Below are positions 4,926 to 62,683 of a stretch of 64,000 nt of DNA, piece by piece. The notes under the pieces were generated by a model. It saw nothing but the letters and a program-made list of their open reading frames with translations. It ran no database searches and was not told the DNA's origin. The translations under genes were made by a program, and so were the position numbers. The stretch comes from a virus. Each line of letters begins with the position of its first letter. The first letter of the stretch is position 1. The stretch lies in the IMG/VR virus record IMGVR_UViG_3300013233_000093, positions 62,001 to 126,000 of that record. One strand, 5' to 3'.

Positions 4926-6527
4926 ATGGATAGTCGTGTGGTGGGTGAGTTGGAGTATGCTGAGTTGGTGTTGGATGGGGTGCTTAGTGGTCGTGTTATT
5001 AAGATCTATGAGGAGTCTGATAGTATTGCCGGTATGCTTTGCCTAGACAAAGACCGTGTGAAGTGGGTGTCTGGCGATAGCATCGCTGCAGACACTGTAG
5101 CAGGCATGCAGTTTATAGGACGTGCTTTTAAGGCTGTGTGGCGGCTCATAGTCCGTGCAGTCATGGCGGTAGTAAGTGGTCTTAAAAGACTCTGGGAGTG
5201 GCTTACCGGAGGCAAGGGCAGTACTAACCCTGATACTCCTGGTGCTACTTATCAGGATACACCTACTCCAGTAGGAGGTAAGATAGGTAAGCAAATGGCT
5301 CGTGAGGATAAGGCCGTCGTAGAGACTGCACTCATCGTAGCAGAGCTAGAAGAGAAGGGCGTAGATATAGAAAAGGCAGTAAGCGAAGTCACTCCTGAGA
5401 TGTTAGAAGCAGCACATCGCGAGAATAATACTCGGGACGAAGCACGGATATCTAAAATAGAGAAGGACGCGGAGGACGCTGAGGAGTTCAACAAGCGTGA
5501 GCGCGAAAGGTTAGACGGCATCACATCAAGGTTTAACGCAACCGCCAAGCAAGAAGCCGCTAATAAAAAGGAAGCCGAACGCATCGCAGCAGCAGATAAG
5601 GAGGTGAGGGAACGCGCAGCAGCAAGGGACGATGCAAGGATTAACGTATTGCGTAAACAACGCAGCGGGTTCACTCGTATAAAGATCACCAATGCCATAC
5701 GCGCCGCATACGCAGAAGAAGTTGGAAAAATCGAGAATAACGCAATCTTAACTTCCGGCGGCATAGACAAAGATAAAATGCGAAGAGCTGTGTATAAGGC
5801 GGCGTCAGGAAGCCAAAACATAAGCCGTATAGATCTAGCTGACTTGCGTTTTAATATTAAAGAAGTCGCTACAAACGGGCCGTCTACCGAGCGGACAAAG
5901 AGGGATGTTGGAGATGCATATAAACGCCTTATTGCTAAAGTTGTACTGCGTACAACCGAGAACGTGTACGAGATTTTTAATATGCCGGAGGGCTACGCGA
6001 GCGCGTTAATCGACGGCATGGTTGATGGCGTGGATGAAGATGAACTGGGCGGTGCGTTAGTATCACCCGACACCGGCGGGGGTAGAGTATTTACACTGAC
6101 CATGGGACGTACGGGCAAGCACACACCGAAGTTTACACTAGCCGTCACCTCACCCAGTACTCCGCCTACGTTGGAACACCTCGACATACCAGGCTTTAGC
6201 GCGGTCAGTGAGGAAATGCAGGAATATCACGAACATGTTTCCAAAACGTCTAAGGCATTCGAGCCGGCGCAAAAGCAAATCCTCGCTAAAATAAAGAAAG
6301 CGCTTAGAGTGCTGGACGAAGAAGCTTCTGCGTACAAGGATCATCCAGACGTGGAAAACATCCACTCCGTTATAGAATCCATAGGAAACGAGTATGCAAA
6401 CGTAACCAAGGCATTAAAGTTTGTAACGCATATCCTGAACGGTTACCAAGATGCGTACACATCCAGAGCCACATTGGCTAGGGAAATCGTGGGATTAGTA
6501 ATAAATAGCCCATCCCGGGAGAAGTAA
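4926..6527 (+). CDS. candidate inner-head (ejection cargo) protein, paralog A, 533 aa
   Basis: The N-terminal ~100 residues are nearly identical to the products at 29497 and, less closely, 6622. Layout: acidic propeptide-like segment 1-62 ending in VAGMQ, then a Trp-rich amphipathic or hydrophobic stretch (~63-95, residues W72, W90, W92), then a long charged coiled-coil-like region rich in Lys, Glu and Ala (~130-240), then a globular C-terminal part. Processed inner-body proteins in paralogous sets are known in phiKZ; the assignment rests on that analogy plus the shared G-[ML]-Q site also found in the capsid protein. The first ~105 bases of the gene are strikingly poor in C. Start ATG 4926 follows TTAGAGGA. 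Confidence 0.65.
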   Translation: MDSRVVGELEYAELVLDGVLSGRVIKIYEESDSIAGMLCLDKDRVKWVSGDSIAADTVAGMQFIGRAFKAVWRLIVRAVMAVVSGLKRLWEWLTGGKGSTNPDTPGATYQDTPTPVGGKIGKQMAREDKAVVETALIVAELEEKGVDIEKAVSEVTPEMLEAAHRENNTRDEARISKIEKDAEDAEEFNKRERERLDGITSRFNATAKQEAANKKEAERIAAADKEVRERAAARDDARINVLRKQRSGFTRIKITNAIRAAYAEEVGKIENNAILTSGGIDKDKMRRAVYKAASGSQNISRIDLADLRFNIKEVATNGPSTERTKRDVGDAYKRLIAKVVLRTTENVYEIFNMPEGYASALIDGMVDGVDEDELGGALVSPDTGGGRVFTLTMGRTGKHTPKFTLAVTSPSTPPTLEHLDIPGFSAVSEEMQEYHEHVSKTSKAFEPAQKQILAKIKKALRVLDEEASAYKDHPDVENIHSVIESIGNEYANVTKALKFVTHILNGYQDAYTSRATLAREIVGLVINSPSREK

Positions 6528-6621: not shown

Positions 6622-8121
6622 ATGGATGTGTATGGTGAGTTGGAGTATGCTGAGTTGGTGTTGGATGGTGTGTTGAGTGGTAGGGTGAGTCAGATCTATG
6701 AGGAGTCTGATACTATTGCTGGTATGATGGGTATGTGTGGTGATAGAGTGGAGTGGGTGTCTGGCGACTCCATAGGCGCAGACACTGTAGCAGGCATGCA
6801 GTTTATAGGTAAGGCAATCGGGGCAGTTTGGAACTTGATCTGGAACGCCATTAGCGCAGTGCTGATAGCTATAGCTAAATTATTCATTTGGTTGTTTACA
6901 GGCGGCAGTCCTGGTAAATCGGGTATAGCGGGCACGATCTATGAAAAGAAGATCACGCCCGCAGGTGGCTGGTTTGGCAAGCGGCAGGTGAAAGAAGATT
7001 ACCATGCGTTACGCATGCGACGACTAGCCGAGCACTCAGTGGCCGTAAATAACCTTACAGCAAGTCTTATTGAACCGGGTAATGCGATAAAGAAGGAACT
7101 CGCTTCTGCGAATGAACTGATTAAACAGCTAGACAAGATTAAGAAAGATCAAGATGCTGACAATAAGACGCTTGACAAGATGACCGACGATATGAAAGCC
7201 TTGCTTAAAGCCCAGGCCGACGAAAAGAAAGATATAGTTTCAGGCAAGACGGTAGCTGTTAACACACCCGCGAAGTCTGATTTCTCAGCCACCATTAAGG
7301 TTACCGATGAGTTGCGCGAAGCGTTCAAGTCGGATTTCGAATACTTGGATAAACATGCAGTGGCCAATAAGGGCACTGTAAGACCAGAAGAAAACCGCAA
7401 GGTAATGCATGACCTCACAGGATTTTCAAAGAAGGCACTGACTGCCGCAGGGGCATTAAAGGACATTCCAAAAGACTTTGACCGCATTATAAAATCCATC
7501 GAGGCTAAGAAATTCGAGAGTGCCGGTAAAGATCAAAAGGCGTTGGTTGATAAGGTGTCTTCTGTGTCAACTGGCATTGCTAACGCAGTCGGACTTGACC
7601 TCGATAATGCAGGTGAGATAGCCCGGTACGCGGATAAACGTGGGGGTTTGTCAAGCACAGATCTAGGTGGCGGCAAGTTTGTGCGGGTGTCTAGCGAAGA
7701 AATAAAAGCCATTCCCGGTCTTTATACATTCAGCGTTAGTGTCATAGAACCCAAAGACATCATCAAAGTAAAACAGCTGATAATCGAAAAGGGCGACTTT
7801 GACGAAGATGTAATAAGCAAGCGTCATCAAGATATGGCGAAGGATTTAAAGATCCACGCAGATGGCTTTGAAGCAGTTAAAAAGCTCGTTAAGGAAACTA
7901 ACGATAAGCTGACCGCTTACACAAAGGGCATGGAAAAAGACGGAGACGTTCCGCTTAGCCCTCTTTTACGTGCAGTCGGTAATAACGTCAAGGAGTACGT
8001 TAACACATACCCTAAGTTATCCAAGGTACTTACTCAGATAACGACGGCAATGCAGCACGATGGAAACATTAAACTTGGTTTACTGTCCGCCATAGCGGCA
8101 GATGGTAAGAAGGATAAATAA
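6622..8121 (+). CDS. candidate inner-head (ejection cargo) protein, paralog B, 499 aa
   Basis: Same architecture as the preceding gene: acidic segment 1-60 ending VAGMQ at residues 56-60, then a hydrophobic Trp-containing stretch (W68, W72, W87) that here is long and apolar enough to suggest membrane affinity, then a Lys/Asp-rich helical middle and C-terminal domain. The first ~140 coding bases are G/T-rich with only about seven C, then composition becomes normal. Similarity to its paralogs fades after the Trp-rich stretch. Start ATG 6622 follows AGAGGAC. Confidence 0.65.
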   Translation: MDVYGELEYAELVLDGVLSGRVSQIYEESDTIAGMMGMCGDRVEWVSGDSIGADTVAGMQFIGKAIGAVWNLIWNAISAVLIAIAKLFIWLFTGGSPGKSGIAGTIYEKKITPAGGWFGKRQVKEDYHALRMRRLAEHSVAVNNLTASLIEPGNAIKKELASANELIKQLDKIKKDQDADNKTLDKMTDDMKALLKAQADEKKDIVSGKTVAVNTPAKSDFSATIKVTDELREAFKSDFEYLDKHAVANKGTVRPEENRKVMHDLTGFSKKALTAAGALKDIPKDFDRIIKSIEAKKFESAGKDQKALVDKVSSVSTGIANAVGLDLDNAGEIARYADKRGGLSSTDLGGGKFVRVSSEEIKAIPGLYTFSVSVIEPKDIIKVKQLIIEKGDFDEDVISKRHQDMAKDLKIHADGFEAVKKLVKETNDKLTAYTKGMEKDGDVPLSPLLRAVGNNVKEYVNTYPKLSKVLTQITTAMQHDGNIKLGLLSAIAADGKKDK

Positions 8122-29496: not shown

Positions 29497-31053
29497 ATGG
29501 ATAGTAGTATGGTGAGTGAGTTGGAGTATGCTGAGTTGGTGTTGGATGGGGTGCTTAGTGGTCGGGTTATTAAGATCTATGAGGAGTCTGATAGTATAGC
29601 TGGTATGCTTTGCCTAGACAAAGACCGTGTGGAGTGGGTGTCTGGCGACTCCATAGGCGCAGACACCGTAGCTGGCATGCAGTTTATAGGTAGAGCTTTT
29701 AAGGCTGTATGGCGTCTGATAGTCCGTGCAGTGATGGCGGTAGTAAACGGCCTTAAAAGACTCTGGGAGTGGCTTACCGGAGGTAAGGGCAGCACTAATC
29801 CGGATACTCCTGGTAGTGTGTATGAAGAGAAGCCCACTCCTGTGGGAGGAGTCATAGGCAAGGAAATGGCTAAGGAAGACAAGGCTAACGTAGAGACCGC
29901 GCTCGCCGTAGCAGAGCTAGACGAGAAGGGAGTGGATATAGAAAAAGCGGCGGAAGAAGCGGCAAGACAAGACGCCGCCAAAGTTGAACGTCGTAAGGCT
30001 GAAGCTGCCGAGGAGGCCAGACGTCGTAAGGACGGGGCGCGTGCAGCGCGCGATAAACAGGAGGCTGAATCAAAAAGGATCAATGATGAACGTATGGCCA
30101 GGGAAGAAGAAGAGGCCAAAATAGCACTGAAGCGTCATCGCAAGGAAGCACTGGCCGCAGAACTAAAAAGGAAGGAAGAACTGCTGCAACGAGCTAGGAA
30201 ACTCGACGGGCTATCGTTCACTATTGAAATACCTGACACGATGAGAGTATTTAAACAGTCTGATATTGCCAGCATAGAGCGAGACGCCATTATAACGGAA
30301 AATCGCGTCGATTATGAAACCATGCGGTCATACTTAGCTAAGTCTACTGAAGCAATCATTGCAATGGGCGATGCCGGGCTGAAGTATTTGACGTTAGGCG
30401 TAGCCTCGTTGTATCGGGCATATCCACAAGACGGCGAGTTTACCGATAAGACACGCGATAGTATAAACAGTGCCATATCGAATGTAACCGATGGCTACGT
30501 AAAACATGCAGCCAACACACTGCGCGTATTATTGCATGGTCATGAAAAGACATACCGCACCAGCCTTGTGGTTGGCGAACGCATGACCGGAAACATGGGC
30601 GGGGGCGATGCGTATCTGGTAACGGTTAGCGCAACGCCTGTAGATGGACAGCTGTCCGTGACATCATCCCTTGTGCCAGCTAAGACAAGACCTGCGCTTA
30701 AATATGTAATGTTTAATGGCACCGAGCTGTCAAATAAAAATATGGTGGACTCGCATTACGAGACGAGGGTGTACGTCAGAGACTTAAATCAGGCCAGCGA
30801 GGCACAAGCTGAAGCACTCGCGGATGCCATCCGCGAGTTTAACGGTTACGTAAAGAAGTTAGACGGCAAGCCGGGTGCTGAGGTTATCACGGACGTTATT
30901 AAAAATGTGATATCGCTAGGAACCGTGGGTGGTACTGCAATAGGCAATGTCGTAAAGCGCCTGTCGAAGTATCAAGCAGCGACCGCAAACGAAGCTGTGT
31001 TCCGCAAAGACTTGTTTATAAACATATTAGACAACGAACCCATGCCCAAATAA
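29497..31053 (+). CDS. candidate inner-head (ejection cargo) protein, paralog C, 518 aa
   Basis: Its first ~100 codons and upstream block are almost the same as those of 4926-6527, although the two lie 24 kb apart, and similarity falls off through the coiled-coil region. Architecture: residues 1-62 ending VAGMQ, a Trp-rich amphipathic stretch (W72, W90, W92), a strongly charged Lys/Arg/Glu/Ala coiled-coil (~140-235), and a globular C-terminus. Role inferred as for the other paralogs: cleaved by the prohead protease and packaged inside the head. Isolated from the first two paralogs, it suggests duplication or gene conversion. Confidence 0.65.
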   Translation: MDSSMVSELEYAELVLDGVLSGRVIKIYEESDSIAGMLCLDKDRVEWVSGDSIGADTVAGMQFIGRAFKAVWRLIVRAVMAVVNGLKRLWEWLTGGKGSTNPDTPGSVYEEKPTPVGGVIGKEMAKEDKANVETALAVAELDEKGVDIEKAAEEAARQDAAKVERRKAEAAEEARRRKDGARAARDKQEAESKRINDERMAREEEEAKIALKRHRKEALAAELKRKEELLQRARKLDGLSFTIEIPDTMRVFKQSDIASIERDAIITENRVDYETMRSYLAKSTEAIIAMGDAGLKYLTLGVASLYRAYPQDGEFTDKTRDSINSAISNVTDGYVKHAANTLRVLLHGHEKTYRTSLVVGERMTGNMGGGDAYLVTVSATPVDGQLSVTSSLVPAKTRPALKYVMFNGTELSNKNMVDSHYETRVYVRDLNQASEAQAEALADAIREFNGYVKKLDGKPGAEVITDVIKNVISLGTVGGTAIGNVVKRLSKYQAATANEAVFRKDLFINILDNEPMPK

Positions 31054-40224: not shown

Positions 40225-41496
40225 ATGAACACCGTAGTCGCAGGTATGGAGAGGCTGAAGTACCAAAGTGGGTCTAAGCTGGCAGAAGAATTAGACGATT
40301 GTTTTGGGGCAATGCGCAGACAGAAACGCGTGGAACTTGATCACTTAAAAGATACTAAGATCGAAGACGTAATCAAGAAACACACTGGAATGAAAATCCG
40401 CTTTAGCGTGTCCAGTGAAGACGAGATTTACAGCTACCCCCCGTTCTTGGATAGGAACCACCCACTCTTACATCACTGGGGTAGAAACATCAGTACCAAC
40501 AGCGAGGCAGAAGAGGCACTGGGGACTAATCCAGTCATCGTAGGCAAGGTCGATTTCGAAAAGGGACGGGTCTCTGGTGTCTATAGCGAAATAGAATATC
40601 GCATTTTCTTACCAGGTGATTTTCTGTCACAGGGATCTCCACTGACCGCTGCACAAGTAACCGCGATTGTGCTACATGAACTGGGGCACGGCTTCCATGC
40701 GTTTGCATTGATGGGGTATACACTCACCACCAGCTTTGTTATTCAGCAAGCGGTGGCCGGACTGCTAAACGAGAAATCCACAGACCGTAAGTACGAAATC
40801 ATGATGGGAATGGAGAAACAGCCTGGGTTTAGAATCTCGGATAAAGACGCGTTGATGACATGTAAGACCAAGGAAGAAATCATCGCGGTGGTCATTACAG
40901 ACAGTGTCTTGGAAAATAAGAGTGAGTTTGGCGCCCCTGTGACTGATAGCCGCAGTCTGGAAATCATGGCCGATAAATACGTGTCGGTGCATGGCCGTGG
41001 TCGTGATCTAGCCACGGCCATCGATACGCTTGTAAACCGTGGCTTTAATTACGATAACGTATATAAGCCTATTCACTGGGTAATCAACCTTTATATCGCA
41101 CAGCGAGGCATTCTACTTACAACCCTAGTGATTTTATTCGTGGACGTAGCCTTCGTCATGTACTTTCTTCTGATAGCGCTGGTGCTTCGGGGACGGTGGA
41201 CGTCGGTCGGTGATTCAACCAAAGAACGATACGGAAACATCAAGAACGACATTGTCTTTTCACTGCGTAACGAAAAGGATAAAGACAGACGCGCTATGCT
41301 ATTAGCGGATTTGGACGCCGTGGACGAGCTGGAAAAGAAGACAAACGATAACCGCTTTTGGATAGGCGTTATGATGGATAATATTTTCCCGGCACTGCGT
41401 GGACGGACTAAGAGCAAGGACGTTCAGCGATCCGTCGAACGACTGATGCAAAACTCACTCTTTGAATCCAAAGAACGATTAGACCAACTGGTATAG
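40225..41496 (+). CDS. membrane-anchored zinc metallopeptidase (M48-like), 423 aa
   Basis: HELGH near residues 151-155 is the HExxH zinc site; EIMADKY near 247-253 provides the third-ligand ExxxD pattern seen in M48-type peptidases. A strongly hydrophobic segment (~295-320) is a likely membrane span, followed by a charged C-terminus. The N-terminus reads VVAGMERL, close to the G-[ML]-Q processing motif of the head proteins. It starts a three-gene operon whose third member is a candidate inner-head protein, so it may be packaged and act on the envelope, or act in head maturation. Start ATG 40225 after GGGGTAGGA. Confidence 0.65.
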   Translation: MNTVVAGMERLKYQSGSKLAEELDDCFGAMRRQKRVELDHLKDTKIEDVIKKHTGMKIRFSVSSEDEIYSYPPFLDRNHPLLHHWGRNISTNSEAEEALGTNPVIVGKVDFEKGRVSGVYSEIEYRIFLPGDFLSQGSPLTAAQVTAIVLHELGHGFHAFALMGYTLTTSFVIQQAVAGLLNEKSTDRKYEIMMGMEKQPGFRISDKDALMTCKTKEEIIAVVITDSVLENKSEFGAPVTDSRSLEIMADKYVSVHGRGRDLATAIDTLVNRGFNYDNVYKPIHWVINLYIAQRGILLTTLVILFVDVAFVMYFLLIALVLRGRWTSVGDSTKERYGNIKNDIVFSLRNEKDKDRRAMLLADLDAVDELEKKTNDNRFWIGVMMDNIFPALRGRTKSKDVQRSVERLMQNSLFESKERLDQLV

Positions 41497-41505
41497 GAGA
41501 TACCC

Positions 41506-42318
41506 ATGCACAAGAGATTAGAAGAAATTGTTTTTGAGTACATCGACTCCGAAATGTCGTTTGGTTTAGAGCAAGAACAAGTCAGTAGAGATTTCCTAAT
41601 GGCATTGCTGGTGGCAAATCGCCTTACGGGCAGAAAGCCGCTGGTTATCCACAGCATGCTTAAACGTCAATGGTCGGACGTATTGTCACACCAAGCAGAA
41701 GAGATTTGTGACCTACTTTACGCCCGTCCTATCCGCTTTAATAAAGCACGCGTAATGACGTTCGTACACAGACACGTTATGTTAAAGGGTTTGGACGTAC
41801 GATGTTCTTACGGAGACGAGGGTTTAATCAGTAAGATGGTGCGTAATTTACATTGCGATGAAGGGGTTGACTTAATCGCAGATCACCCGGATGTTATTCC
41901 TGAGTTAGACAAGCAGTGCACAAAGCTCGAACAGTCGGATACAAGTGAGTTTAACGCAGCCATTGAACTCGCCGGAACCGATCCGCGCCAGTTGCACCTG
42001 TTTTACGGGTCATACCACCAAGCGGTTATAAACTCACCTGTTATGGCGGATCGCACAAAGGTGGCGCATCATGTATTTAACACCATCAATACAGAACTGC
42101 GCGCAGTGTGTAAAGAGAACGCCCGTATTTGCATGTTCATGTACGTGGACCACAATCAATTAGACATCGACTTAAGCGAGCATTCGATGTCCGAGTATGT
42201 ACACGGCATTACAGTAACCAGCCCATCTGTCGCACTAAGCGTCTTAGGGCACTGGACTGCCATGAGTAACCGTATTAAAGCTTTGGGAGATGAGAAATAT
42301 GCAATTACCGGACATTGA
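41506..42318 (+). CDS. hypothetical protein in the metallopeptidase operon, 270 aa
   Basis: Soluble, His/Cys-containing, no recognised motif. Starts ten bases after the metallopeptidase stop (AGGAGATACCC ahead of ATG) and overlaps the next gene's start. Probably works with its neighbours in the head or at infection. Confidence 0.6.
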   Translation: MHKRLEEIVFEYIDSEMSFGLEQEQVSRDFLMALLVANRLTGRKPLVIHSMLKRQWSDVLSHQAEEICDLLYARPIRFNKARVMTFVHRHVMLKGLDVRCSYGDEGLISKMVRNLHCDEGVDLIADHPDVIPELDKQCTKLEQSDTSEFNAAIELAGTDPRQLHLFYGSYHQAVINSPVMADRTKVAHHVFNTINTELRAVCKENARICMFMYVDHNQLDIDLSEHSMSEYVHGITVTSPSVALSVLGHWTAMSNRIKALGDEKYAITGH

Positions 42319-43555
42319 TCTAGACCAAGTAGAAGATCTTGAGATGGGCGATATCGACCTGCCTGAGATGGACGGGTTAAACGTAGCCCGGGTATTACTT
42401 GAGTCGATGACTTCCGTATCAGCCAATGGCATATCCAGAGACGTCGTCACGGGCATGCAATCGCTCGTACCGGGGCTGTTATCGGATTACCCCATCATGG
42501 GGTTTACAGAACAGCCAAGTACCATTAACCTTGTCCCAGGCATGCAGGCATTTCTAGCCAACGTAGCAGGACTTATATGGAAAGCCATTAAGGCCATTTG
42601 GAATATTCAACTGGCCGTCTTAAAGTGGATATGGAAGACAATCACTGCTGGTTTTTCTGGCAAGTCGCGTGACGCGGCTAGGCGTGTTAAAGCGGCTGTG
42701 GAAGACGTTAAGTCCGGCAAGAAGGTGTTTGACATTGAGGAGTACTATTCCAAGGGTACGCGCCTAAGTGAGTTCATCGAGGATGAGCACAAGTCACTGA
42801 TTGACCTAAATGACGCTTACCGTACATGGGGTATTTACGCAGCAATGAACGTCGCACTGGGCGAGGAACTCAAGTCCACGGACAGAGAGATCAAATCGCT
42901 TAGTGAAAAGACCGTGGCTAAGTCGGTCAATGCGTTCGTAGACAGATTCAAGGACGCCGCAGGCAAGGTAGTAAAAGAACATTCCATGTCTAAGGAGCTT
43001 GATCACTTTTACCCAGAGCTGGATAATGCGTATGATAGATACGAACTCATCGCTAAGAAAGAGTTTGTCGGTACCAGTTCTTCTAGCGACAACCCAGGTC
43101 CTGAGAACGGCGACGTTTTTTCCAGCAACAGTGCAACGTGGCGCGCTACACGCATCATTAAAACACGCAGGGAGGTTGCGTTAGGACTGCACAAATCCAA
43201 ACGTCGTTCCACAACAGGGGCACGCCCTAATAAAGATGCGATCATAGAAATCTTAGAATCGGATTTCTTTACTAAAGCGGTCGATCGTTCGATTACGAAA
43301 ACCATCGGTGCTAGCGTTCAAGCCACCGGCGCGTTTTTAAAGATGAACCCGTCGACTCCATCCACGGCGTCGTACAATGATAATGGAACTGCTGCAGCAG
43401 TTAAAGAGTTAACCGATGCGATGAATTCTGTTACAAAAGCGTATAACGTCATGTCCGGTAACTCTAAAGCGTTGTTCGACACCGCAAGGTTACTGAATAA
43501 CGCCAGAACAAAGATGAATATTGCATTCCATACGGCGTGCAAAGCACCCGCTTAA
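42299..43555 (+). CDS. candidate inner-head (ejection cargo) protein, paralog D, 418 aa
   Basis: ATG 42299 is chosen over 42290 because GGGAG (42285-42289) is then nine bases away. Residues 1-83 are acidic and carry VTGMQ (50-54) and VPGMQ (79-83). Then comes a Trp-rich amphipathic stretch (~88-120 with W94, W101, W110, W114), then a charged helical region. The order acidic leader, G-M-Q, Trp helix, coiled coil is the same as in paralogs A-C although sequence similarity is low. Assigned as a processed, packaged head protein by this shared design. Confidence 0.6.
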   Translation: MQLPDIDLDQVEDLEMGDIDLPEMDGLNVARVLLESMTSVSANGISRDVVTGMQSLVPGLLSDYPIMGFTEQPSTINLVPGMQAFLANVAGLIWKAIKAIWNIQLAVLKWIWKTITAGFSGKSRDAARRVKAAVEDVKSGKKVFDIEEYYSKGTRLSEFIEDEHKSLIDLNDAYRTWGIYAAMNVALGEELKSTDREIKSLSEKTVAKSVNAFVDRFKDAAGKVVKEHSMSKELDHFYPELDNAYDRYELIAKKEFVGTSSSSDNPGPENGDVFSSNSATWRATRIIKTRREVALGLHKSKRRSTTGARPNKDAIIEILESDFFTKAVDRSITKTIGASVQATGAFLKMNPSTPSTASYNDNGTAAAVKELTDAMNSVTKAYNVMSGNSKALFDTARLLNNARTKMNIAFHTACKAPA

Positions 43556-43557
43556 CA

Positions 43558-43593
43558 GCATAAGTAGAGCAGGGCAAATGCCCTGCTCTATGC
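43558..43593. terminator. bidirectional hairpin between convergent genes, TATGC on both strands
   Basis: TAGAGCAGGGCA/TGCCCTGCTCTA, 12-bp perfect stem with AA loop (43565-43590), preceded by GCATA and followed by TGCCGTC, so TATGC is read on both strands. Confidence 0.8.
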
Positions 43594-43595
43594 CG

Positions 43596-46448: not shown

Positions 46449-47514
46449 TATGTCTTCCTTCCTCAGGTGGCGGGGTGATGTTCAGCTTACCGTACATCTT
46501 GTAATAATCAGACAGTTCTACATACCACTCCAACTCATGCGTAGGTGAGATGTGCGGGTAGCCTTTATAGTTAAACATACGGACTTCTTCACGCAGCAGT
46601 TTGATCATGTGCCTCGGGCGTTGTCGGTCACGCATCGCAGGATTAAAGATGTTCATTACTTGATTGAAGTTAATGATGTCACGCGGATCGTTTACACGCG
46701 TACCATAACACTTCCACCGCACGTTGATGTTTTCAGTACCTTCCGTTTGTGCTTGCTCTGCGCTGTAGTTAAAAGCACTCCCGTCGTTTATGCCGTTAGG
46801 CCATGCAATGGTGGTGATCAACTTACGCACATAAGTCTTAGTGCGATCCAGGATAATCCGATAGACCTTTGTATTGTAATCAATGCGGTTCTGTATAATG
46901 TACTTTGGGTAAGGTGCTATCGTGCCGTATTTTACCAGCGTGGGATAGATGATCCATGCAGTAATAAGACTGGTGACGGGGTCACCGTCGATGTTCTGGA
47001 ATGTGGTGTTTAAGTCCCATTCGCCATAATGCATGTCGTAACCATCCGACCAGCCGATGACTTCACGACGTAATCCTTCCTTAGTGCTAAACGCATCCGT
47101 GCTTGTGTCATTCCACCCGGTGTTGGACAGCATTGTATTTGTCAATATAGGAATAAATGGCATACGGTCATCTACGATCGGAGAGCGTGGCAACTGCGTT
47201 CCACCGTCCAATAAAAACAACTCTCGATCTCGTTGTTCTATGTTAGGAGATAACAGACATCGAATGGAATTCGCCATGTCTTCACGATTGCCATACCCCA
47301 TAAAGGAGAGGCGTCTGCTGGCCAGAACATTATCGTATGTCAGATTAAGGTTAGGCCGGGTGAAAAAGGTAAGTCCTTGTTGGTCGTAATGCCCGGGTGT
47401 TAAATTGCCCACACCTCTATGGTTTATGCCGTTCATGACGTTAAAGACGCCAGATCGACCCGTCCCCATGCCGCTTTGGACATGGAGCTTGTCTACTATG
47501 TCTGCCATACTCAT
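46432..47514 (-). CDS. virion structural protein, 360 aa
   Basis: Asn/Tyr/Arg-rich protein without recognised motif, overlapping the 950-aa baseplate candidate by 17 bases. Composition and coupling suggest a tail or baseplate part. Its start lies only 27 bases from the start of the divergent plus-strand gene, leaving almost no room for two separate promoters. Start ATG 47514 (a second ATG at 47508). Confidence 0.6.
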   Translation of the reverse strand: MSMADIVDKLHVQSGMGTGRSGVFNVMNGINHRGVGNLTPGHYDQQGLTFFTRPNLNLTYDNVLASRRLSFMGYGNREDMANSIRCLLSPNIEQRDRELFLLDGGTQLPRSPIVDDRMPFIPILTNTMLSNTGWNDTSTDAFSTKEGLRREVIGWSDGYDMHYGEWDLNTTFQNIDGDPVTSLITAWIIYPTLVKYGTIAPYPKYIIQNRIDYNTKVYRIILDRTKTYVRKLITTIAWPNGINDGSAFNYSAEQAQTEGTENINVRWKCYGTRVNDPRDIINFNQVMNIFNPAMRDRQRPRHMIKLLREEVRMFNYKGYPHISPTHELEWYVELSDYYKMYGKLNITPPPEEGRHNVPKK

Positions 47515-47541
47515 TTTAGTAATCTCTTAAAGGTTTTTATA

Positions 47542-48615
47542 ATGTCCGAGAAAAAGGAACCAAGTCTGCTTAATCATATAAACGTCGTGCTAAGCAAGAT
47601 CGACGAGCTAGGCACGGACTCGTTATCCGAGGCCAGCAGCAGCACAAGACTTACACCAATGGTGCTTGTCGATCAGGCACTGACTCTGTCCGATGATAAG
47701 GTATTGACCAATGCATTGCAAACGTGCACAGGTATTTACACTGCACATTATCTACAGGCAGTGCAAGTCGCCAACGTAAAAGAGGTGCAGACACTGCACC
47801 TACTGGATCAGTTTGCCACCAACAGAGGCACTGCAAAGAGCGGTGTACTCATGGACGGCGCGTTTGACAAAATGTTATTGCCCATCGGCATGCAGTCTTA
47901 CGATAAGTCGGATAAGTTGCTGTCTTACGATAACGTCTATCCGGGTATGCAGGCCAAGGAAAGTCCCCTAGACGATCACGTCAACTTAGCGGTGGGTCGG
48001 GTAATCAACATTAAGTTGGGCGCCGGTGATACTAAGGTTGATATCCAATGCACCGTACAGATCAACCCAAGGGTCATTCCCTCATCGGTTCTGCCTAGCG
48101 TATTAGCCAATACCGTAAAAGATAAATCGTACATCGGTCGTTGGCATCAATGGCGCGCAGGTGAAATCGAATCGTTTATGGATTATGCGCTTGGCTTAGA
48201 CATCATCGAGCAAGAACGCACGGCAATGATGAATGATCCGTCAGGGTTATATATCGAATTGCGTAATCGCAAGAAAGAAGGTTGGTATCGCACACTGTTG
48301 TCTGGGCGTAAGTCTATGAACACAGCTTCTACCATGGCCGTCATTGCCAAGTCCACACAGGAAGAACTCGAACTTGCTCTCGGCGGTAAGCTCAAGAACG
48401 AGTCTATCATCCGCACGTACTTCGTAGAAACACATTCCATGCTGTTGATGGTGTTGGACATGCGTAAAGAACGGGTGTACTTGTGGCAACGAGGCATAGC
48501 GGGATCAGCCCGGTATACGTTTAGAGACCTCGAAAAGGTCTCTAAGAACTCAAACGGTATGGACATTGAGTCCGTAATGAAAGCGTACGCCCTCGGCGAC
48601 AGCGCACGATTCTAG
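47542..48615 (+). CDS. candidate head structural protein with two internal G-M-Q sites, 357 aa
   Basis: Start ATG 47542 after TTAAAGGTTTTTATA; the frame extends upstream into the divergent gene and is not used. Residues 114-118 (PIGMQ) and 133-137 (YPGMQ) match the processing motif of the capsid and inner-head proteins, here in the middle of the chain with the segment before them mostly helical. This would release a ~120-137 aa N-terminal piece. Otherwise no recognised domain. Followed eight bases later by another structural gene. Confidence 0.55.
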   Translation: MSEKKEPSLLNHINVVLSKIDELGTDSLSEASSSTRLTPMVLVDQALTLSDDKVLTNALQTCTGIYTAHYLQAVQVANVKEVQTLHLLDQFATNRGTAKSGVLMDGAFDKMLLPIGMQSYDKSDKLLSYDNVYPGMQAKESPLDDHVNLAVGRVINIKLGAGDTKVDIQCTVQINPRVIPSSVLPSVLANTVKDKSYIGRWHQWRAGEIESFMDYALGLDIIEQERTAMMNDPSGLYIELRNRKKEGWYRTLLSGRKSMNTASTMAVIAKSTQEELELALGGKLKNESIIRTYFVETHSMLLMVLDMRKERVYLWQRGIAGSARYTFRDLEKVSKNSNGMDIESVMKAYALGDSARF

Positions 48616-48622
48616 GAGCAGT

Positions 48623-49531
48623 ATGATGGCTGGTGGAATTTTATCTGGGTTGACGGCGTTCGTGGACGGCCTTATCCCTTCGTTTAAGAAAAACCGATTG
48701 CCTGAAAAGCTGGACACCACGTTTAAAGGCATGTCTACTGTAGTAGCGATCTACAACATGGATGGCAGAGACCGTACATTGCAAATGACACTCGAGGACA
48801 ATTACCCTACAATGATTCGTGGCATCGAGCGCCGGTGCAATGAATATCGTGGTAACTTTGTAGACTTCGTTTATCGTACTGCGGTGGATCGCATTAACGA
48901 TCGTGCGGATCTCCTGGCAGTCTGCGATGAGGCATTCGGCCCTAAGATCTCTAAAAACGATCTCACGTATCGTCAGACGCAGTTATTGCAATACACCACA
49001 GGACTGGGGTTCTTTGTGTTGTACGCGCGTAAACTGATGATGCAGGCGTATAACGACCTCATCGACGATCCTTCCATTGTATCGCCCATCGATCACGAAG
49101 ACGAAGAGTTCTTAGAGAACGTAGTCAATCAACGTAACTTTGCAATCATCGTGTCTGCCATGCAGCTGTCCGCTAAAGACATCGGCAGAGCCACAGTGAA
49201 TCTAAGCAACTTGATTTACGACGAGTCTACTTACGAGTACGTCAAGCGTGATAACAAAGGCGGTCTGGATCCATTGAAGATTGGCCTGTTACCAATCATA
49301 GGCGATTTGGCGTACGCGATCGGTTCTTCCGTGTCTGAATATTTCGTGAACCAGATCGAACGGGATAAGGCAGAGGCTGAAAAGTTGAAAATCCAGGTGT
49401 TGTTGATGCGCCGTAAACTTGACGGCGTTGTGGATAAAGATTCCATTGAGAAGCTTAAGAAATCCATCGCGTATTACAACGATCGGATTAACAAGCTGGC
49501 AATGGAAGAAGAAGACATTCTAGATAACTAA
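48623..49531 (+). CDS. hypothetical structural protein with C-terminal coiled coil, 302 aa
   Basis: Starts ATGATG at 48623/48626 after TAGGAG; the second ATG has the better spacing. Glycine/hydrophobic N-terminus (MAGGILSGLTAFVDG), helical middle, and a C-terminal coiled coil (~245-300, heptads of Leu/Ile with Lys/Glu). Coupled to the candidate head protein upstream. Function unknown. Confidence 0.6.
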   Translation: MMAGGILSGLTAFVDGLIPSFKKNRLPEKLDTTFKGMSTVVAIYNMDGRDRTLQMTLEDNYPTMIRGIERRCNEYRGNFVDFVYRTAVDRINDRADLLAVCDEAFGPKISKNDLTYRQTQLLQYTTGLGFFVLYARKLMMQAYNDLIDDPSIVSPIDHEDEEFLENVVNQRNFAIIVSAMQLSAKDIGRATVNLSNLIYDESTYEYVKRDNKGGLDPLKIGLLPIIGDLAYAIGSSVSEYFVNQIERDKAEAEKLKIQVLLMRRKLDGVVDKDSIEKLKKSIAYYNDRINKLAMEEEDILDN

Positions 49532-49551
49532 CTGTGGTGTAGGAGTGGCGT

Positions 49552-50028
49552 ATGTTTGTAGTCGGGGAAGGGGATTGGGATGCGTTGTGTAATCTTATCG
49601 CGCGTAAGGAAGTGCTTGGTGATACAAGTCTGTCTGTAGACGATGTGTTGGAAGGCATGGGCATCTTACAGCGATCTGAGTTATGGCGTTGTAACGATAA
49701 CATGACGATGGAGGCGTACGACCTGTCGTTAGACTATCTACACAAGTTAAAAGATCCGAAACGAACGGCGTATCCGTTCTTCTACATATCAGATGAACCC
49801 ACTGTGCTCAGTGAAGATGCGTGCCAAAAAGCCGCAACGCATTTCGATCATGAGATCATCGAGCATTTTGGTGCGGGTAATTTACAACAAGTCATAAGCT
49901 TGTTTAAAATACCGTTTACCTACGAGGCGCTGGTAGACGGCCTTATCCTGATTTATGTTATGGGTCTATTAAGCGGACGTATTCCTCAGGACGCGGGCGG
50001 GTACATCGACATGCTAAAAATAGCTTAA
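49552..50028 (+). CDS. hypothetical protein, 158 aa
   Basis: Small acidic helical protein 20 bases after the previous gene, GGAG ahead of ATG 49552. No motif recognised. Precedes a structured leader and an inner-head gene. Confidence 0.6.
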   Translation: MFVVGEGDWDALCNLIARKEVLGDTSLSVDDVLEGMGILQRSELWRCNDNMTMEAYDLSLDYLHKLKDPKRTAYPFFYISDEPTVLSEDACQKAATHFDHEIIEHFGAGNLQQVISLFKIPFTYEALVDGLILIYVMGLLSGRIPQDAGGYIDMLKIA

Positions 50029-50040
50029 ACGTAATTTTAC

Positions 50041-50125
50041 GCACATCCATTTAGGGTGTGCTTAGTAACGCGCTCCCTAGCGCAAAGTGTGATCACACTT
50101 AAACTTTTACTTAAGGAAATTTCCT
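50041..50125 (+). promoter_or_regulatory. structured leader of inner-head paralog E
   Basis: Three stem-loops in a row: GCACA/TGTGC (50041-50061), GCGC/GCGC (50070-50083) and the 16-base palindrome AAGTGTGATCACACTT (50085-50100). The ribosome site lies in the palindrome AGGAAATTTCCT (50114-50125) just before the ATG. No promoter of the early type is seen. Confidence 0.55.
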
Positions 50126-51439
50126 ATGAACATGATCGCTCAAGATCTTGGTGCTGTAGCTTTTACCGAGTCAGACGAGGTTATCGCTGGTTTGCAATCC
50201 ATGGACTCCGAAGTTGAAATGGCAGAAGCCAATGCTTTGGAAGTTCAACATTCACGCATCGAAGCCGATATCGCTGCGGCGTCCAACGTCTGTGCCGGTC
50301 TGCAATCCTTGCATGACAGCGCTGCACGTGCAAGTGCACAAGGTGGATTAGACGGTAATGGCGGTGACGTACTGCTGGTCGCCGCAGAAGCATTGCTGGC
50401 TACCATCGGTGTCCAAAGCTCCACTGGCCTGCCTGGTATGCAAGCGTATAACAGCAACAGCAAAGGCGCTACTGTCGCGGGCATGCAGTCCTTCGGCGAA
50501 TGGATCAGCGGCATCTGGAATTCCATTGTGAAGGCTGTCAGTAAAGCCACGCAAGCAGTAGCCGCATGGTTTAAGAAATGGCTTGGCACAGTAGAAAGGC
50601 TCGAAAAGGCTGGAAAGAAATTGCGCTTGAATGCACATAACCGCGAAGACACTAAAGGTATTTTAGCTGAACCAACCTTCGAGGTGAGCAATTACTGGCT
50701 GCTAACTGAGAATGGCACGTCCGACGAGGTCAAGCCCGACGATTTCGCCGGTATGGTTGCAGAGGTAGAGGAATACTACGGCAGTGGATTGGTGGATGAT
50801 TTTGTTAAATCTATCGAGGAAACCATGGACGGCATTAAGAGCGATCCGGATAAAAGCGGCAGCCTGACCAGTAAAGACCTCGCGTACGTCAATAAGTTCA
50901 AAAAGATGTACAAAATCAAATCAACCACGGTGGATAGCGATGAGGGAGTTGAAGTGTCCACATCTCAGACGGCATTTAAAGGCGCCGAAGTCTTTGGCAA
51001 CGGTTTCTTCTACGCAATCGATGACAGTGAATCAAAAGGCTTTGACTTTACTGGTAGATTTCATGCTCCGGTTAAAAAGCAATTCGGCGGGGAAAGCAAA
51101 AAAGAAATCGACGCTTACGGTATTTCTGAAATAATATCAGTAGCCACTACAGTTGTAGATGCGTGCTCTTATATCAAAAGAAACGATCCTTTTAAAGATT
51201 TCGACGATGCAAACAAAGTCGTATTGAAAGCCGCCGAGGAAGCTGTCAAGGAAATTGAAAATGCGGAAAGATCTGCCGAAGGTGGTGAGTTTAAATCAAT
51301 TGCTTCTGATGTTACGGCAATGGTGGTTAGCGCCACCACAATGTTGCGCATGGTGAACCGTGACTACATCAAGCATGTCGTAAATGTTGCACAGAACCAG
51401 CACAGCTTCGCTGTCAAGTGTTACAAAAACATCAAATAA
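50126..51439 (+). CDS. candidate inner-head (ejection cargo) protein, paralog E, 437 aa
   Basis: The N-terminal 121 residues hold four G-[ML]-Q sites: IAGLQ (20-24), CAGLQ (56-60), LPGMQ (102-106) and VAGMQ (117-121). A Trp-rich amphipathic helix follows (W126, W131, W148, W152), then a charged, mostly helical domain. Four sites suggest step-wise removal of a long propeptide by the prohead protease. The structured leader resembles that of the capsid gene, so high late expression is likely. Assigned by architecture; no close family recognised. Confidence 0.65.
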   Translation: MNMIAQDLGAVAFTESDEVIAGLQSMDSEVEMAEANALEVQHSRIEADIAAASNVCAGLQSLHDSAARASAQGGLDGNGGDVLLVAAEALLATIGVQSSTGLPGMQAYNSNSKGATVAGMQSFGEWISGIWNSIVKAVSKATQAVAAWFKKWLGTVERLEKAGKKLRLNAHNREDTKGILAEPTFEVSNYWLLTENGTSDEVKPDDFAGMVAEVEEYYGSGLVDDFVKSIEETMDGIKSDPDKSGSLTSKDLAYVNKFKKMYKIKSTTVDSDEGVEVSTSQTAFKGAEVFGNGFFYAIDDSESKGFDFTGRFHAPVKKQFGGESKKEIDAYGISEIISVATTVVDACSYIKRNDPFKDFDDANKVVLKAAEEAVKEIENAERSAEGGEFKSIASDVTAMVVSATTMLRMVNRDYIKHVVNVAQNQHSFAVKCYKNIK

Positions 51440-54344: not shown

Positions 54345-55127
54345 TTGAACAAGCAAGAATTAGCGAAACACATCTTTAGACACACTTACCGTTGTGAATG
54401 CACCACTCTGGCGTACGAGTCTATTACAGACGTCGTCCGTATCCAGCGCAAGACCATGAACACCACCGTATTTGATCCTTACGGACAGCGCATCGTCATT
54501 ACAGAAGACCCGTCTGAAATAGAGGCTTCGGTAGCAGCGACATTTAGCCGTGTTTCTAATTACTCTGGCGATGAGGCGGCGGATGCGTTAGCGGCAAAAT
54601 CGCTAATGACATACGACCTGACTATCAACCAGATGATCGAGATGAACGTGGACAACGGTTACGACGTAACATTGCTGGATCTGTCGTCTGCAGAAGAGTT
54701 GATTGGTGTGGTCGCAGACTACATTAACATCGTCCAGGAAGACGTAACCTTATCCGCCCATGGTGCTGGTGTGCCGGATAAAGACATCCGTGCGCTTAAC
54801 GAGTTCTACACCAAGGTACTGCCCTTAAGAAACATGATTGGCAGTGCACGGGGCAGCAGTGATATGTGGGACGCACTGTCTGGCATCTTTGCTACAATCG
54901 GGTTTACCTTAAACGAGTCGAACAATGAGTTGGAATCACTGGCATCCCGCTGGGCAGAACCGGTTCCCACATTCGAAGAAGCACGTTTACTGGTACACGA
55001 AGAAGCAGTTAAACCCTCCATCCGCCCGACGTCACAACGAGGCTGGGGCGGCAACGGCCTGAACACGGGTAAAACACACGACGAGACGATTCGTAGAAGT
55101 GATTCGAATCCGTACGACTTCGGATGA
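54345..55127 (+). CDS. hypothetical structural protein, TTG start, 260 aa
   Basis: An ATG at 54321 is in frame but has no ribosome site, while ATAGGAGTAG (54331-54340) is ideally placed for the TTG at 54345 (MNKQELAK), which is therefore preferred. The protein is acidic in the first two thirds and has a Gly/Asn-rich C-terminal tail. It overlaps the next gene by four bases (ATGA). Function unknown; structural by context. Confidence 0.55.
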   Translation: MNKQELAKHIFRHTYRCECTTLAYESITDVVRIQRKTMNTTVFDPYGQRIVITEDPSEIEASVAATFSRVSNYSGDEAADALAAKSLMTYDLTINQMIEMNVDNGYDVTLLDLSSAEELIGVVADYINIVQEDVTLSAHGAGVPDKDIRALNEFYTKVLPLRNMIGSARGSSDMWDALSGIFATIGFTLNESNNELESLASRWAEPVPTFEEARLLVHEEAVKPSIRPTSQRGWGGNGLNTGKTHDETIRRSDSNPYDFG

Positions 55128-56479
55128 GTGTTCTTAACTCCGCTACGTACGAGGAGATGTTGGAGCTGGTAAAGCGTCCTTCGTATCCAGTGCGTTGGAA
55201 GTATTCCTGTGTGGTGATAACCGACGGCGTGCGTAACGATGTAATCAACTTAAACATCTATCAAGTAAAGAACGATTTCGTAAACGAGTATTACGGATAC
55301 CACTTCTTAACGGTAACGGTAGATGCGGTGGTGCATCGTCGTATGTTGAATAACCTGACTTCTCTGCAGGTGGAACTCACACAGACTCAGGATGAAACGG
55401 CAAGTGTGCCGCAGACAGGTAAGGTAAAGAGCCAACTGTTTAACGCCAAGTTGACAGACCCAACCAATCCTGAGTTGATGTCTATACAGAAGGGCGGGTC
55501 AAGAGACGATCAGCAATCCCAGTTACTGGGACACGCGGAAATCACGTTACAGCTCATCGAACCCTTCATGTCGGACTATCGCGTGATGGAGATAGGTGGT
55601 GTGGTGCGTGACGAGACCGTACAGGACGTCCTAACGGTCTTACTCGGTAGAGGCTTGCCTAAGGTAGCCTCTGCAGATCTCCTCTCTGATCCGTCTTATA
55701 TGGGCTTACGTGGTGTGCATGTGGTAAAGCCAGATAATACGATCGTGCATAAGCAGCTTATCCTAGAGACAGGCACACGCCTGATAGACTTGCCTAGGTT
55801 GTTGCAAGACACTGTAGGTGTGTATACTTCTGGTTTAGGATGGCATGTGCACCGTGGCAGGTGTTATGTGTTTCCTAAGTTGCGATACGACTTGTTTCAG
55901 GAAGACACACGCACACTGACGATTCTTAATGTGCCGGAAGCAGAGATCCCCACCATGGAGAAAACCTTCTTGGTGCGGTCAGGACAGTTGTTTGTTTTCT
56001 CTACAGGAGAAACAGGCCATGCTGATTTGTCTGAGGAAGCCATTGCTAATGTCGGTAACGGACTTAGATTTATTAAGTCCACGGACCTGGTAAACGGGTA
56101 CCATGTAAACACCGAGAACAAAACCAGCTTTACGCGCACCGACTATGTACGAGAGTACTTAATAGACGAACGTGCGCAAGGAGACAATAACGTAAAGTCC
56201 GCTAAGCCGTTCTTCACCGACAACCCGTTTAACGAGTTATCTGAGATGACGGAAGGGCTGGGTTCTAGGCTCCGTGTAAACTGGGATCATGCAGAACCCA
56301 ATCTGCTATACCCGGGCATGCAGGTGCGGTACATGTACGTACATAACGATGAAGTAATCCAGATGTACGGAAGTCTAATCGGACTGCATACGTTCGCAGC
56401 ACCCACTACGGATCGTGTATTGGATAATCAATATACGACATCCTGTTCACTAACCATTCACGTTAAACGTAAGGCATAA
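55124..56479 (+). CDS. virion structural protein, tail-hub-like candidate, 451 aa
   Basis: Two-part beta-rich protein. The N-terminal ~250 residues contain segments resembling the repeated barrels of tail-hub (gpD/gp27-type) proteins, and the C-terminus ends in a strand pattern typical of these (TTSCSLTIHVKRK). This is an impression, not a motif match. It contains PGMQ near residue 405, which I regard as chance because it is far from the N-terminus and inside a strand. Last gene of the structural operon; a 14-bp terminator follows. Confidence 0.5.
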   Translation: MSVLNSATYEEMLELVKRPSYPVRWKYSCVVITDGVRNDVINLNIYQVKNDFVNEYYGYHFLTVTVDAVVHRRMLNNLTSLQVELTQTQDETASVPQTGKVKSQLFNAKLTDPTNPELMSIQKGGSRDDQQSQLLGHAEITLQLIEPFMSDYRVMEIGGVVRDETVQDVLTVLLGRGLPKVASADLLSDPSYMGLRGVHVVKPDNTIVHKQLILETGTRLIDLPRLLQDTVGVYTSGLGWHVHRGRCYVFPKLRYDLFQEDTRTLTILNVPEAEIPTMEKTFLVRSGQLFVFSTGETGHADLSEEAIANVGNGLRFIKSTDLVNGYHVNTENKTSFTRTDYVREYLIDERAQGDNNVKSAKPFFTDNPFNELSEMTEGLGSRLRVNWDHAEPNLLYPGMQVRYMYVHNDEVIQMYGSLIGLHTFAAPTTDRVLDNQYTTSCSLTIHVKRKA

Positions 56480-60499: not shown

Positions 60500-62683
60500 A
60501 TGTCAAGACTTGACTCTACAATCAGTTACGATGCAGCAGCAGACTGCATTTTAACCATCGACCAGACCCTGCGCGCCAAGGAAGATATCTATGGCGAAGA
60601 TTTGGCTGCATCCGTAGCTGGCATGCAGTCCCTGGGTAACGCTGACTTCGCTGACGTGAAAGCCACTCATGACGCCACCACCGACATTTTGAACGTCGCT
60701 GGTTTGCAACAGTTGCTTGTTGATGAGTACGGTGCTGATAATAAAGAAGCCATCCGTATCGGTATGGAAGCAGCCAGCATTCAAATGATGGTTTCTGGCG
60801 GCATGGAAATGGCCACCAACACCCCTGACGATTTGCCTAACCTTGAAAAGGGTACCGTGGTACTGGCAGCAAGCGATGTGGTTCCTGGTTTGCAAGCATT
60901 CCAAAACCAAGATCTTGGTGAATACCGCGCTACTGCCATTGTGATGGCAGGTTTGACAGCTGCTTCTGGTAAAGCCGATGAGCTGTTCTATCCAACCAAA
61001 GTTGTGGAAGCCGGTGCACAGGGACGTAGCGTTTCAGTTCGTATCCCTTACGTGTACAAACGTACCCTGAAATCCACCGACGGTTCCCCAATGGAAATCG
61101 CCATGACCCCTCTGATGGGCGCCATGGAAGATCACACCATTTTGGAAGCAGACATCCTGAAACTTCTGCCTAATGCAGACAACACCGCTAACTCAGCTTA
61201 CTTGGTTGATCCAGCAGTGGTTCCAAATGAAACCATCGTTGTAGATGGCATTGACGTCAACACACGTCCCATCGTTTTCGGTAAGAAGACCGATCTGATT
61301 TCTTTGTCTGGACACACCGGATTGCTTGGTTCTGCAGCACAGTCTGAAACCGACACCATGTCTACCTTGGTAAACTTGGGTCACGTCTGGGCTAAGATCA
61401 GTACCAGTACCACAGACGCAGCAGGCGCCACTGTGGTAAAATCCAGCATTGTTAAGTTCCGCGTAGACGGCACACCTGGCTCTACCTTTACTCGTCCTAG
61501 CGAAGGCAAAGACACCGACCTGTCCATGCTGTACACCGAATCATTGATGCTGGGTGGCGAAGTCACTGGTATCGACGGCGTTACAATTACAACTGCAGGT
61601 CTTGGTATCGACGGCTTGATCGCTGCCGGCGGCAAAGCTTGGACCATTCAGTTGCCTGTCCGTATTTCAGGTTCTTGCAACTTTGAAACCTCCAACATCA
61701 TCGTTGACGGCACCGCTATTGATCTTGGTAAAGTGTTCATCGGTGATACCGAAGTGGCACAGTCCAGTGCTGAATACACCGCACTGAAAGCAGCTATGAC
61801 TTTGGAATTGATCGGCTATCGTCCGTTGGCTACTCGTACCAACAGCACTTTGCGTCAAACCGGTACTCTGATCGACATGGGCACTGCGCGTAACTACTTC
61901 TTTGAAGTGCGTCCTGGTTCTCCTGTTGCTACCCGTAAACCTTCTGGTCCTTACGTCGGTGGTGGTGCAAACTTGGATTACATGAAGAAAGCGCTGCGTA
62001 CACGCACCTCTAACTCCACTGTGACCAACATCCTTGCACAAGAACAAGCGATCATCTACGCAGCAGCCAACAGCGCTCCTGTCGGTGGATCCACCACCAT
62101 CGGTGGAATGTATGTGCGTCCTACCTATTTGGTAGACAACATTGACGCTGCACTGAACGTCGTCTTCCAAAACTCCATCGCCATTGTCGAGAACTTGCGT
62201 TCTGTGATGTACAATGCAATGGGCGTGATGGCTGACACCATGGCCATCAGTTCTGGTTACATCACTGCACTGGGCGAGTTCCCACAGGGCGAGCAAGAGT
62301 ATGACATCATCGCCATCTGCGATCCTCGTCTGGCTCCTTTGTTCATGCGCTCCGGTGACGAACGTACTCTGGGTGCAAACAACAACTTGATCGTCGCATC
62401 GCATTTGGACAAGCGCATGCGCGGTAAAGTATTGTTTTCATTCTCACGTCGTAAACGTGCAGGCGATTCCCAGATTGATCCATTGAGCTGGGGTGCTCGT
62501 TACGTTAAGCCACCTATCGTGCATACCGCGAAAGGCATTGTGCGTAACGATGCGATCTTAGATGAGATCCATGTATTGCCACAAGAGCATCACATCAACG
62601 TGTTGCCTATCCTGGGACGTATCAACGTCACCAACTTAGAGACTGTGTACAAACACATCTCTAAAACTACTGCACCTGCTTAA
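60500..62683 (+). CDS. major capsid protein precursor, 727 aa
   Basis: Length and N-terminal processing fit the phiKZ-family major head protein (phiKZ gp120 is ~747 aa and loses ~160 residues). ATG 60500 after TTAAAGGTAATAATA is preferred to an open upstream extension. In the first 135 residues there are three Q-type sites, VAGMQ (39-43), VAGLQ (66-70) and VPGLQ (128-132), plus GME at 88-90 and 101-103, and no similar site later. Cleavage after Q132 would leave ~595 residues. The rest is a beta-rich capsid-like body with very regular, highly expressed-style codons. Followed by a 13-bp terminator. Confidence 0.8.
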   Translation: MSRLDSTISYDAAADCILTIDQTLRAKEDIYGEDLAASVAGMQSLGNADFADVKATHDATTDILNVAGLQQLLVDEYGADNKEAIRIGMEAASIQMMVSGGMEMATNTPDDLPNLEKGTVVLAASDVVPGLQAFQNQDLGEYRATAIVMAGLTAASGKADELFYPTKVVEAGAQGRSVSVRIPYVYKRTLKSTDGSPMEIAMTPLMGAMEDHTILEADILKLLPNADNTANSAYLVDPAVVPNETIVVDGIDVNTRPIVFGKKTDLISLSGHTGLLGSAAQSETDTMSTLVNLGHVWAKISTSTTDAAGATVVKSSIVKFRVDGTPGSTFTRPSEGKDTDLSMLYTESLMLGGEVTGIDGVTITTAGLGIDGLIAAGGKAWTIQLPVRISGSCNFETSNIIVDGTAIDLGKVFIGDTEVAQSSAEYTALKAAMTLELIGYRPLATRTNSTLRQTGTLIDMGTARNYFFEVRPGSPVATRKPSGPYVGGGANLDYMKKALRTRTSNSTVTNILAQEQAIIYAAANSAPVGGSTTIGGMYVRPTYLVDNIDAALNVVFQNSIAIVENLRSVMYNAMGVMADTMAISSGYITALGEFPQGEQEYDIIAICDPRLAPLFMRSGDERTLGANNNLIVASHLDKRMRGKVLFSFSRRKRAGDSQIDPLSWGARYVKPPIVHTAKGIVRNDAILDEIHVLPQEHHINVLPILGRINVTNLETVYKHISKTTAPA

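Follow-up and report, generated by a model that had tools for sequence, protein, structure and literature searches.

We describe a jumbo bacteriophage in which the head proteins share a recurrent G-X-Q|[S/A/G/F] motif. Very probably, the S80 prohead protease encoded by the phage cleaves at these sites, and its P1 preference has moved from Glu to Gln. The sites are predicted to lie within propeptides of the capsid, portal and inner-head (ejection) proteins and of the protease itself. The analysed window of 64,000 nt comprises positions 62001-126000 of the 222,906-base virus record IMGVR_UViG_3300013233_000093 (the genome is hereafter G000; coordinates refer to the window unless G000 is named). 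Because its capsid protein matches PhiKZ_MCP (Pfam PF25620, E=5e-118) and a gene block from 40225 to 51439 retains the SPN3US order gp45-gp53, this is a phiKZ/SPN3US-type jumbo phage. A search of G000 for SPN3US gp225 detected no homologue. In the absence of virion, host or proteomics data for this phage or for the second one described below, cleavage after Gln remains an inference from sequence.

Accounts of phiKZ, 201phi2-1, SPN3US and T4 have head proteins cut after glutamate throughout. In the literature—open-access reports only, so that another report is not excluded—we found solely glutamyl cleavage for this group. Head maturation by S80 peptidases is itself known; what is new is Gln at P1, with a single origin and with substrates and protease changed together. 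Judged from sequence, G000 departs from the published specificity of the family, cleavage after Glu: among its mapped positions, only that in the homologue of SPN3US gp45 lacks Gln at P1.

The major capsid protein precursor (60500..62683, plus strand; 727 aa; PHROG 3231) belongs to the phiKZ gp120/SPN3US gp75 family and passes as a phiKZ-type capsid on both its profile match and an N-terminal propeptide in the 130-163 residue range. Positions 60500-60895 span exactly the stretch from the capsid ATG through the last base of the Q132 codon. Two sites on the plus strand are internal to the propeptide, VAGMQ43|S (60620..60628) and VAGLQ70|Q (60701..60709), and a third, VPGLQ132|A (60887..60895), is the maturation site. 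The latter occupies the column of ATE-130, where cleavage of the SPN3US capsid was mapped by mass spectrometry (PMC10052503). In the final alignment, P1 of this column is Gln only in G000 and L168 and Glu in all 39 Glu-type relatives; the Q43 column is Glu in 37 of the 39, and the Q70 site reads AGLE in L169/L170 and CGLQ in a second Q-type phage (see below). As an earlier note on this DNA had anticipated, a cut after Q132 would leave a capsid protein of 595 aa, comparable to 636 aa in SPN3US and, by alignment, 584 aa in phiKZ. The propeptide also holds GME at E90 and E103.

The P1 changes are single-base ones (codons GAR to CAR), as might be seen if CAR were read as Glu in these phages, or if the sites no longer had any function. 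We regard either as extremely improbable. Conserved Glu columns of the capsid that are not sites, 161 and 689, are still Glu in both Q-type phages, with columns 43 and 132 being Gln, which argues against recoding; the P5-P2 and P1' surroundings of the sites are likewise retained.

The G-[ML]-Q sites listed in the earlier note for the capsid protein, five inner-head proteins designated paralogs A to E and a 357-aa protein were all confirmed in the sequence. Both sites of paralog D exist, yet their numbering shifts: Q57 and Q86, counted from the first ATG, had been given as Q54 and Q83 from the second. Composition-preserving shuffles of the seven window head proteins predicted 0.69 occurrences as compared to 14 observed (none of 2000 shuffles scored as high). 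Since the N-termini of paralogs A, B and C are nearly identical, we also treated them as a single observation, leaving 12 occurrences against 0.53 expected. The remaining 45 window proteins contained the motif at chance frequency (4 observed, 3.54 expected), and the protease and portal, encoded outside the window, contained 3 (0.26 expected; 6 of 2000 shuffles as high). The motif is thus present far above chance, with the enrichment limited to head proteins. No enrichment of G-[ML]-E over shuffles was found, neither in head proteins nor in other window proteins.

A better notation for the motif is G-X-Q, where X is Met or Leu in most cases, since portals also show Thr, Tyr or Phe at P2 (VGTQ, HGYQ, PGFQ). 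The earlier note had taken Gly at P3 as a further departure from phiKZ-type sites. This does not hold: Glu-type relatives carry Gly, Ala or Ser at this position, so P3 Gly is not novel and only P1 switched. The sites keep a small P3, a mostly hydrophobic P2 and Ser, Ala or Gly at P1', and P1 is therefore what changed, via single-base GAR-to-CAR substitutions. Outside the window, the motif was located in the C-terminal linker of the protease and in the portal, as the hypothesis predicts, and in further inner-head paralogs; genome-wide counts derive from pattern searches and selected stretches rather than from one continuous reading of the genome. Among GMQ codon-pattern matches that lay outside the window and in genes other than these two, three fell in inner-head paralogs with the same N-terminal plan, and the remainder were not in frame or belonged to short or unrelated reading frames. 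The 55124-56479 (+) protein has a YPGMQ at residue 400 that we do not count as a site, since Glu-type and Gln-type relatives alike have it; unrelated to the protease motif, it provides a useful negative control.

Several inner-head proteins within the syntenic block (all plus strand) can be matched to known substrates. The SPN3US gp47 homologue, paralog D (42290..43555), contains VTGMQ57|S and VPGMQ86|A, which align with the mapped SPN3US sites AVE-75 and ALE-111. The 357-aa SPN3US gp50 homologue (47542..48615; PHROG 3239) contains IGMQ118|S and PGMQ137|A, the corresponding columns reading IGTE and PSTE in G005, a Glu-type relative. Paralog E (50126..51439), a phiKZ-type internal head protein homologous to SPN3US gp53/54 (Pfam phiKZ_IP PF12699, E=4e-22), has the motif at Q24, Q60, Q106 and Q121; Q106 aligns with the mapped gp54 site AQE-124, and Q121 with gp53 AQE-125 and gp54 ARE-137. 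Cleavage of its propeptide is inferred. In the gp47, gp50 and gp53 homologues, alignment places the Glu-to-Gln changes in register with a Glu-type relative. Paralogs A (4926..6527, VAGMQ62|F, directly followed by an amphipathic helix), B (6622..8121, VAGMQ60|F) and C (29497..31053, VAGMQ62|F), also on the plus strand, were assigned solely from the motif and the shared helix. The exception is the SPN3US gp45 homologue (40225..41496, +), whose N-terminal site VAGME10|R retains Glu and is hence unswitched. This protein bears an HExxH motif (VLHELGHGF, as compared to IILHEVGHV in SPN3US), which suggests, on sequence grounds, that the phage group has a head protein resembling a metalloprotease.

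With SPN3US gp245 as query, a single homologue was retrieved from G000 (260 aa, G000 15362 onward, outside the window). It is a Peptidase_S80 (Pfam PF20034, E=3.9e-49, 226 of 229 positions; PHROG 3014, head maturation protease), and its C-terminal part contains the motif twice, in YHSVGMQ199|SLG and DVVGMQ229|SGH. SPN3US gp245 sheds its own C-terminal propeptide after AQE-203 (PMC10052503); autocleavage of the G000 enzyme is inferred. P1 in this linker is Glu in 89 of 90 Glu-type relatives. In an AlphaFold model of one relative (L048), the linker, whose near-invariant P1 Glu is residue 191, is predicted to be disordered (pLDDT <50 at 187-197), as expected of a self-cleaved linker. In the portal (G000 134890 onward, outside the window), the sites are SYGMQ186|S and AVGTQ243|S. 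Cleavage of the SPN3US portal takes place at ATE-161 and AQE-254, and the G000 sites fall near the mapped ATE-161 and the phiKZ SME, their placement varying with the alignment.

These locations bear on two further explanations, each of which we consider very improbable. The motif could be a prohead-targeting or scaffold-binding sequence instead of a cleavage signal, given that its N-terminal position and repetition resemble capsid-targeting sequences and that the N-termini of paralogs A, B and C are conserved among them; however, in the protease it is found in the C-terminal tail, in the capsid and portal it falls in the middle of the propeptide, and its positions match SPN3US sites mapped by mass spectrometry. 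Alternatively, the sites could be cut by another phage or host protease, for which the window offers the HExxH head protein (40225-41496) and a ClpP-like protein recognised by eye (28374-29432); yet the S80 protease is the one whose own autocleavage linker has the motif and whose sequence varies in step with the switch. The second of these window proteins, of 352 aa (+), resembles a ClpP/SppA-type serine protease in its C-terminal half, by eye only (GGSVMAFAGCNNGDRLTLTNTEFLLSP).

A second phage, G048 (IMGVR_UViG_3300013233_000235), displays the same switch, its capsid being 39% identical to that of G000. It surfaced in a scan of viral contigs with capsid two-sequence alignments; scans with single capsid or protease sequences returned no matches, and a nine-sequence capsid alignment was too diverse for this use. 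No third Q-type phage was detected in the viral contig scans, which is weak evidence of absence given the few short patterns used. The G048 capsid sites read VAGMQ|A, CGLQ|S and VAGTQ|A, its portal has GYQ|G and PGFQ|A, and GxQ is found in the gp45, gp47, gp50 and gp53/54 homologues and in additional inner-head paralogs. Unlike in G000, the gp45 site has switched (VGLQ|A). The first site in the G048 protease is PGMQ|S, while the second, VGLM, has neither residue at P1.

A tree built from 41 capsid sequences joined G000 and G048 in one clade (support 100/100), with the Glu-type G005 (IMGVR_UViG_3300048591_000242) and G050 (3300042255_000023) as sister group (joint support 98/88). As the Q-type phages form one clade, and the sisters and all others on the tree are Glu-type, the simplest history is a single Glu-to-Gln switch in the common ancestor of G000 and G048. 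These closest Glu-type relatives have G-M-E and S-M-E sites and a protease with His106 and NEPG, and G005, where this was checked, has the same syntenic substrates as G000. We consider it reasonably probable that the P1 specificity of the protease changed once and that at least a dozen sites in at least seven substrates switched along with it, leaving one residual Glu in G000 and none seen in G048. The proposal of a Q-type prohead protease site, put forward in the earlier note, finds support in the motif's presence in the S80 linker and portal, in the alignment with mapped SPN3US Glu sites whose columns are Glu in relatives, in the existence of a second such phage and in a protease that differs at near-invariant positions.

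Alignment of the proteases, which the earlier note had proposed for changes in the S1 pocket, uncovered altered near-invariant positions, but the pocket itself was not located. None of the 89 relatives in the first alignment departs from the catalytic residues H79, S154 and D180, and both Q-type proteases keep them. Position 106 is His in 89 of 90 Glu-type proteases (Phe in the other) and Lys or Arg in the Q-type pair (Lys in G000, Arg in G048); position 186 is Gly in all 90 and Ala or Asp in the pair. Both Q-type enzymes further show P185 replaced by Gln and N146 by Asp, with EQD substituting for EPG in G048, and F153, adjoining the catalytic Ser, is Val or Tyr. Positions 106, 146, 153, 185 and 186 may contribute to P1 recognition or to its compensation. 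Which residues set the preference can only be inferred: the changes amount to one event of single origin (n=1), on a long branch, and causal residues hence cannot be told apart from hitchhikers. No solved structure of a relative turned up in the PDB, searched by sequence and by fold, and we therefore make no claim that the S1 pocket is lined by H106. Nor is there a direct analogy to chymotrypsin-fold enzymes, since Glu and Gln specificity there both rely on one histidine (PMC5508998), and it is not obvious how replacing His with Lys or Arg would lead to preference for an uncharged residue. The sole other protease lacking His106 (L116:1501-2271, Phe) has Glu sites nonetheless (GLES, GIEC). A divergent S80 fragment (L100:1501-2283) has His at 106 and reads SPSLQN in the column of the autocleavage site, perhaps a Gln site that arose independently; a capsid gene was sought on this contig and not found.

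Whether the protease is strictly Gln-specific or accepts both residues is undecided. Dual specificity remains possible because of VAGME|R in the gp45 homologue, GME at capsid E90/E103 and VGLM in the G048 protease; the enzyme could take Glu as well, or the GME sites could go uncut. The specificity might accordingly have relaxed rather than switched, with a protease that admits either residue at P1 and substrates that drifted to Gln. This possibility, which we rate as the weaker one but cannot dismiss, draws on the Glu kept at the homologous gp45 site and at capsid residues 90 and 103, and on some viral 3C-like proteases taking both residues (PMC5508998). Relaxation would, however, predict a mixture of Glu and Gln, whereas all mapped positions in window, protease and portal but one are Gln, the gp45 site in G048 is Gln too, and GxE is not enriched in head proteins.

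Under a genuine switch, the protease of the ancestor of G000 and G048 would have changed its P1 preference from Glu to Gln, and P1 codons of the substrates would have gone from GAR to CAR at homologous positions. Upon completion of the prohead, the protease would free its own C-terminal propeptide at Q199, as in phiKZ and SPN3US, make three cuts in the capsid propeptide (after Q43, Q70 and Q132) so that a capsid protein of 595 aa remains, trim the portal and release inner-head proteins with amphipathic, Trp/Phe-rich N-terminal helices (FIGRAFKAVWRLIVRAV and the like).

The SPN3US gp245 system (A-X-E|S) has a homologous protease, capsid, portal and gp45/47/50/53 substrates in the same gene order, and shares the small P3, the favoured Ser at P1', several cuts per propeptide and C-terminal autocleavage; it differs from G000 in P1 (Glu versus Gln) and P3 (Ala versus Gly). 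The type peptidase, phiKZ gp175 (MEROPS S80, S/A-X-E), is of the same family, with an aligned capsid site VGLE163|N (by alignment), and differs in its P1 Glu and in the conserved His at 106 that is Lys in G000. G048 resembles G000 in its Gln P1 in capsid and other substrates. Viral 3C/3CL proteases, too, are a maturation protease family with Gln- and Glu-specific members (PMC5508998), but these are unrelated chymotrypsin-fold enzymes of RNA viruses. The Q-type clade implies that the rule of cleavage after glutamate can be broken, and raises the question of how an essential protease can acquire a new specificity if a dozen sites in essential proteins have to change with it. If true, this amounts to a specificity switch of a whole degradome in nature—an enzyme and its target set changing together—with the nearest unswitched relatives still known as Glu-type sisters. 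It also offers a short list of residues (106, 153, 185 and 186) that may take part in recognising P1, in a family without a solved relative in our searches, and makes cleavage sites predictable in uncultivated jumbo phages.

The arrangement of the inner-head genes differs between the Q-type phages. In G048, at least six GxQ-containing paralogs stand in tandem (L176:15361-20000 and L177:1-3432), more than in G000, which has one locally and the others dispersed. The dispersed G000 paralogs number at least six (G000 38181, 200790 and 202120, all minus strand; window 4926, 6622 and 29497). They combine a common N-terminal module of propeptide, GMQ, amphipathic helix and TGG with divergent C-terminal parts, and give the impression of a single delivery leader fused to various cargos.
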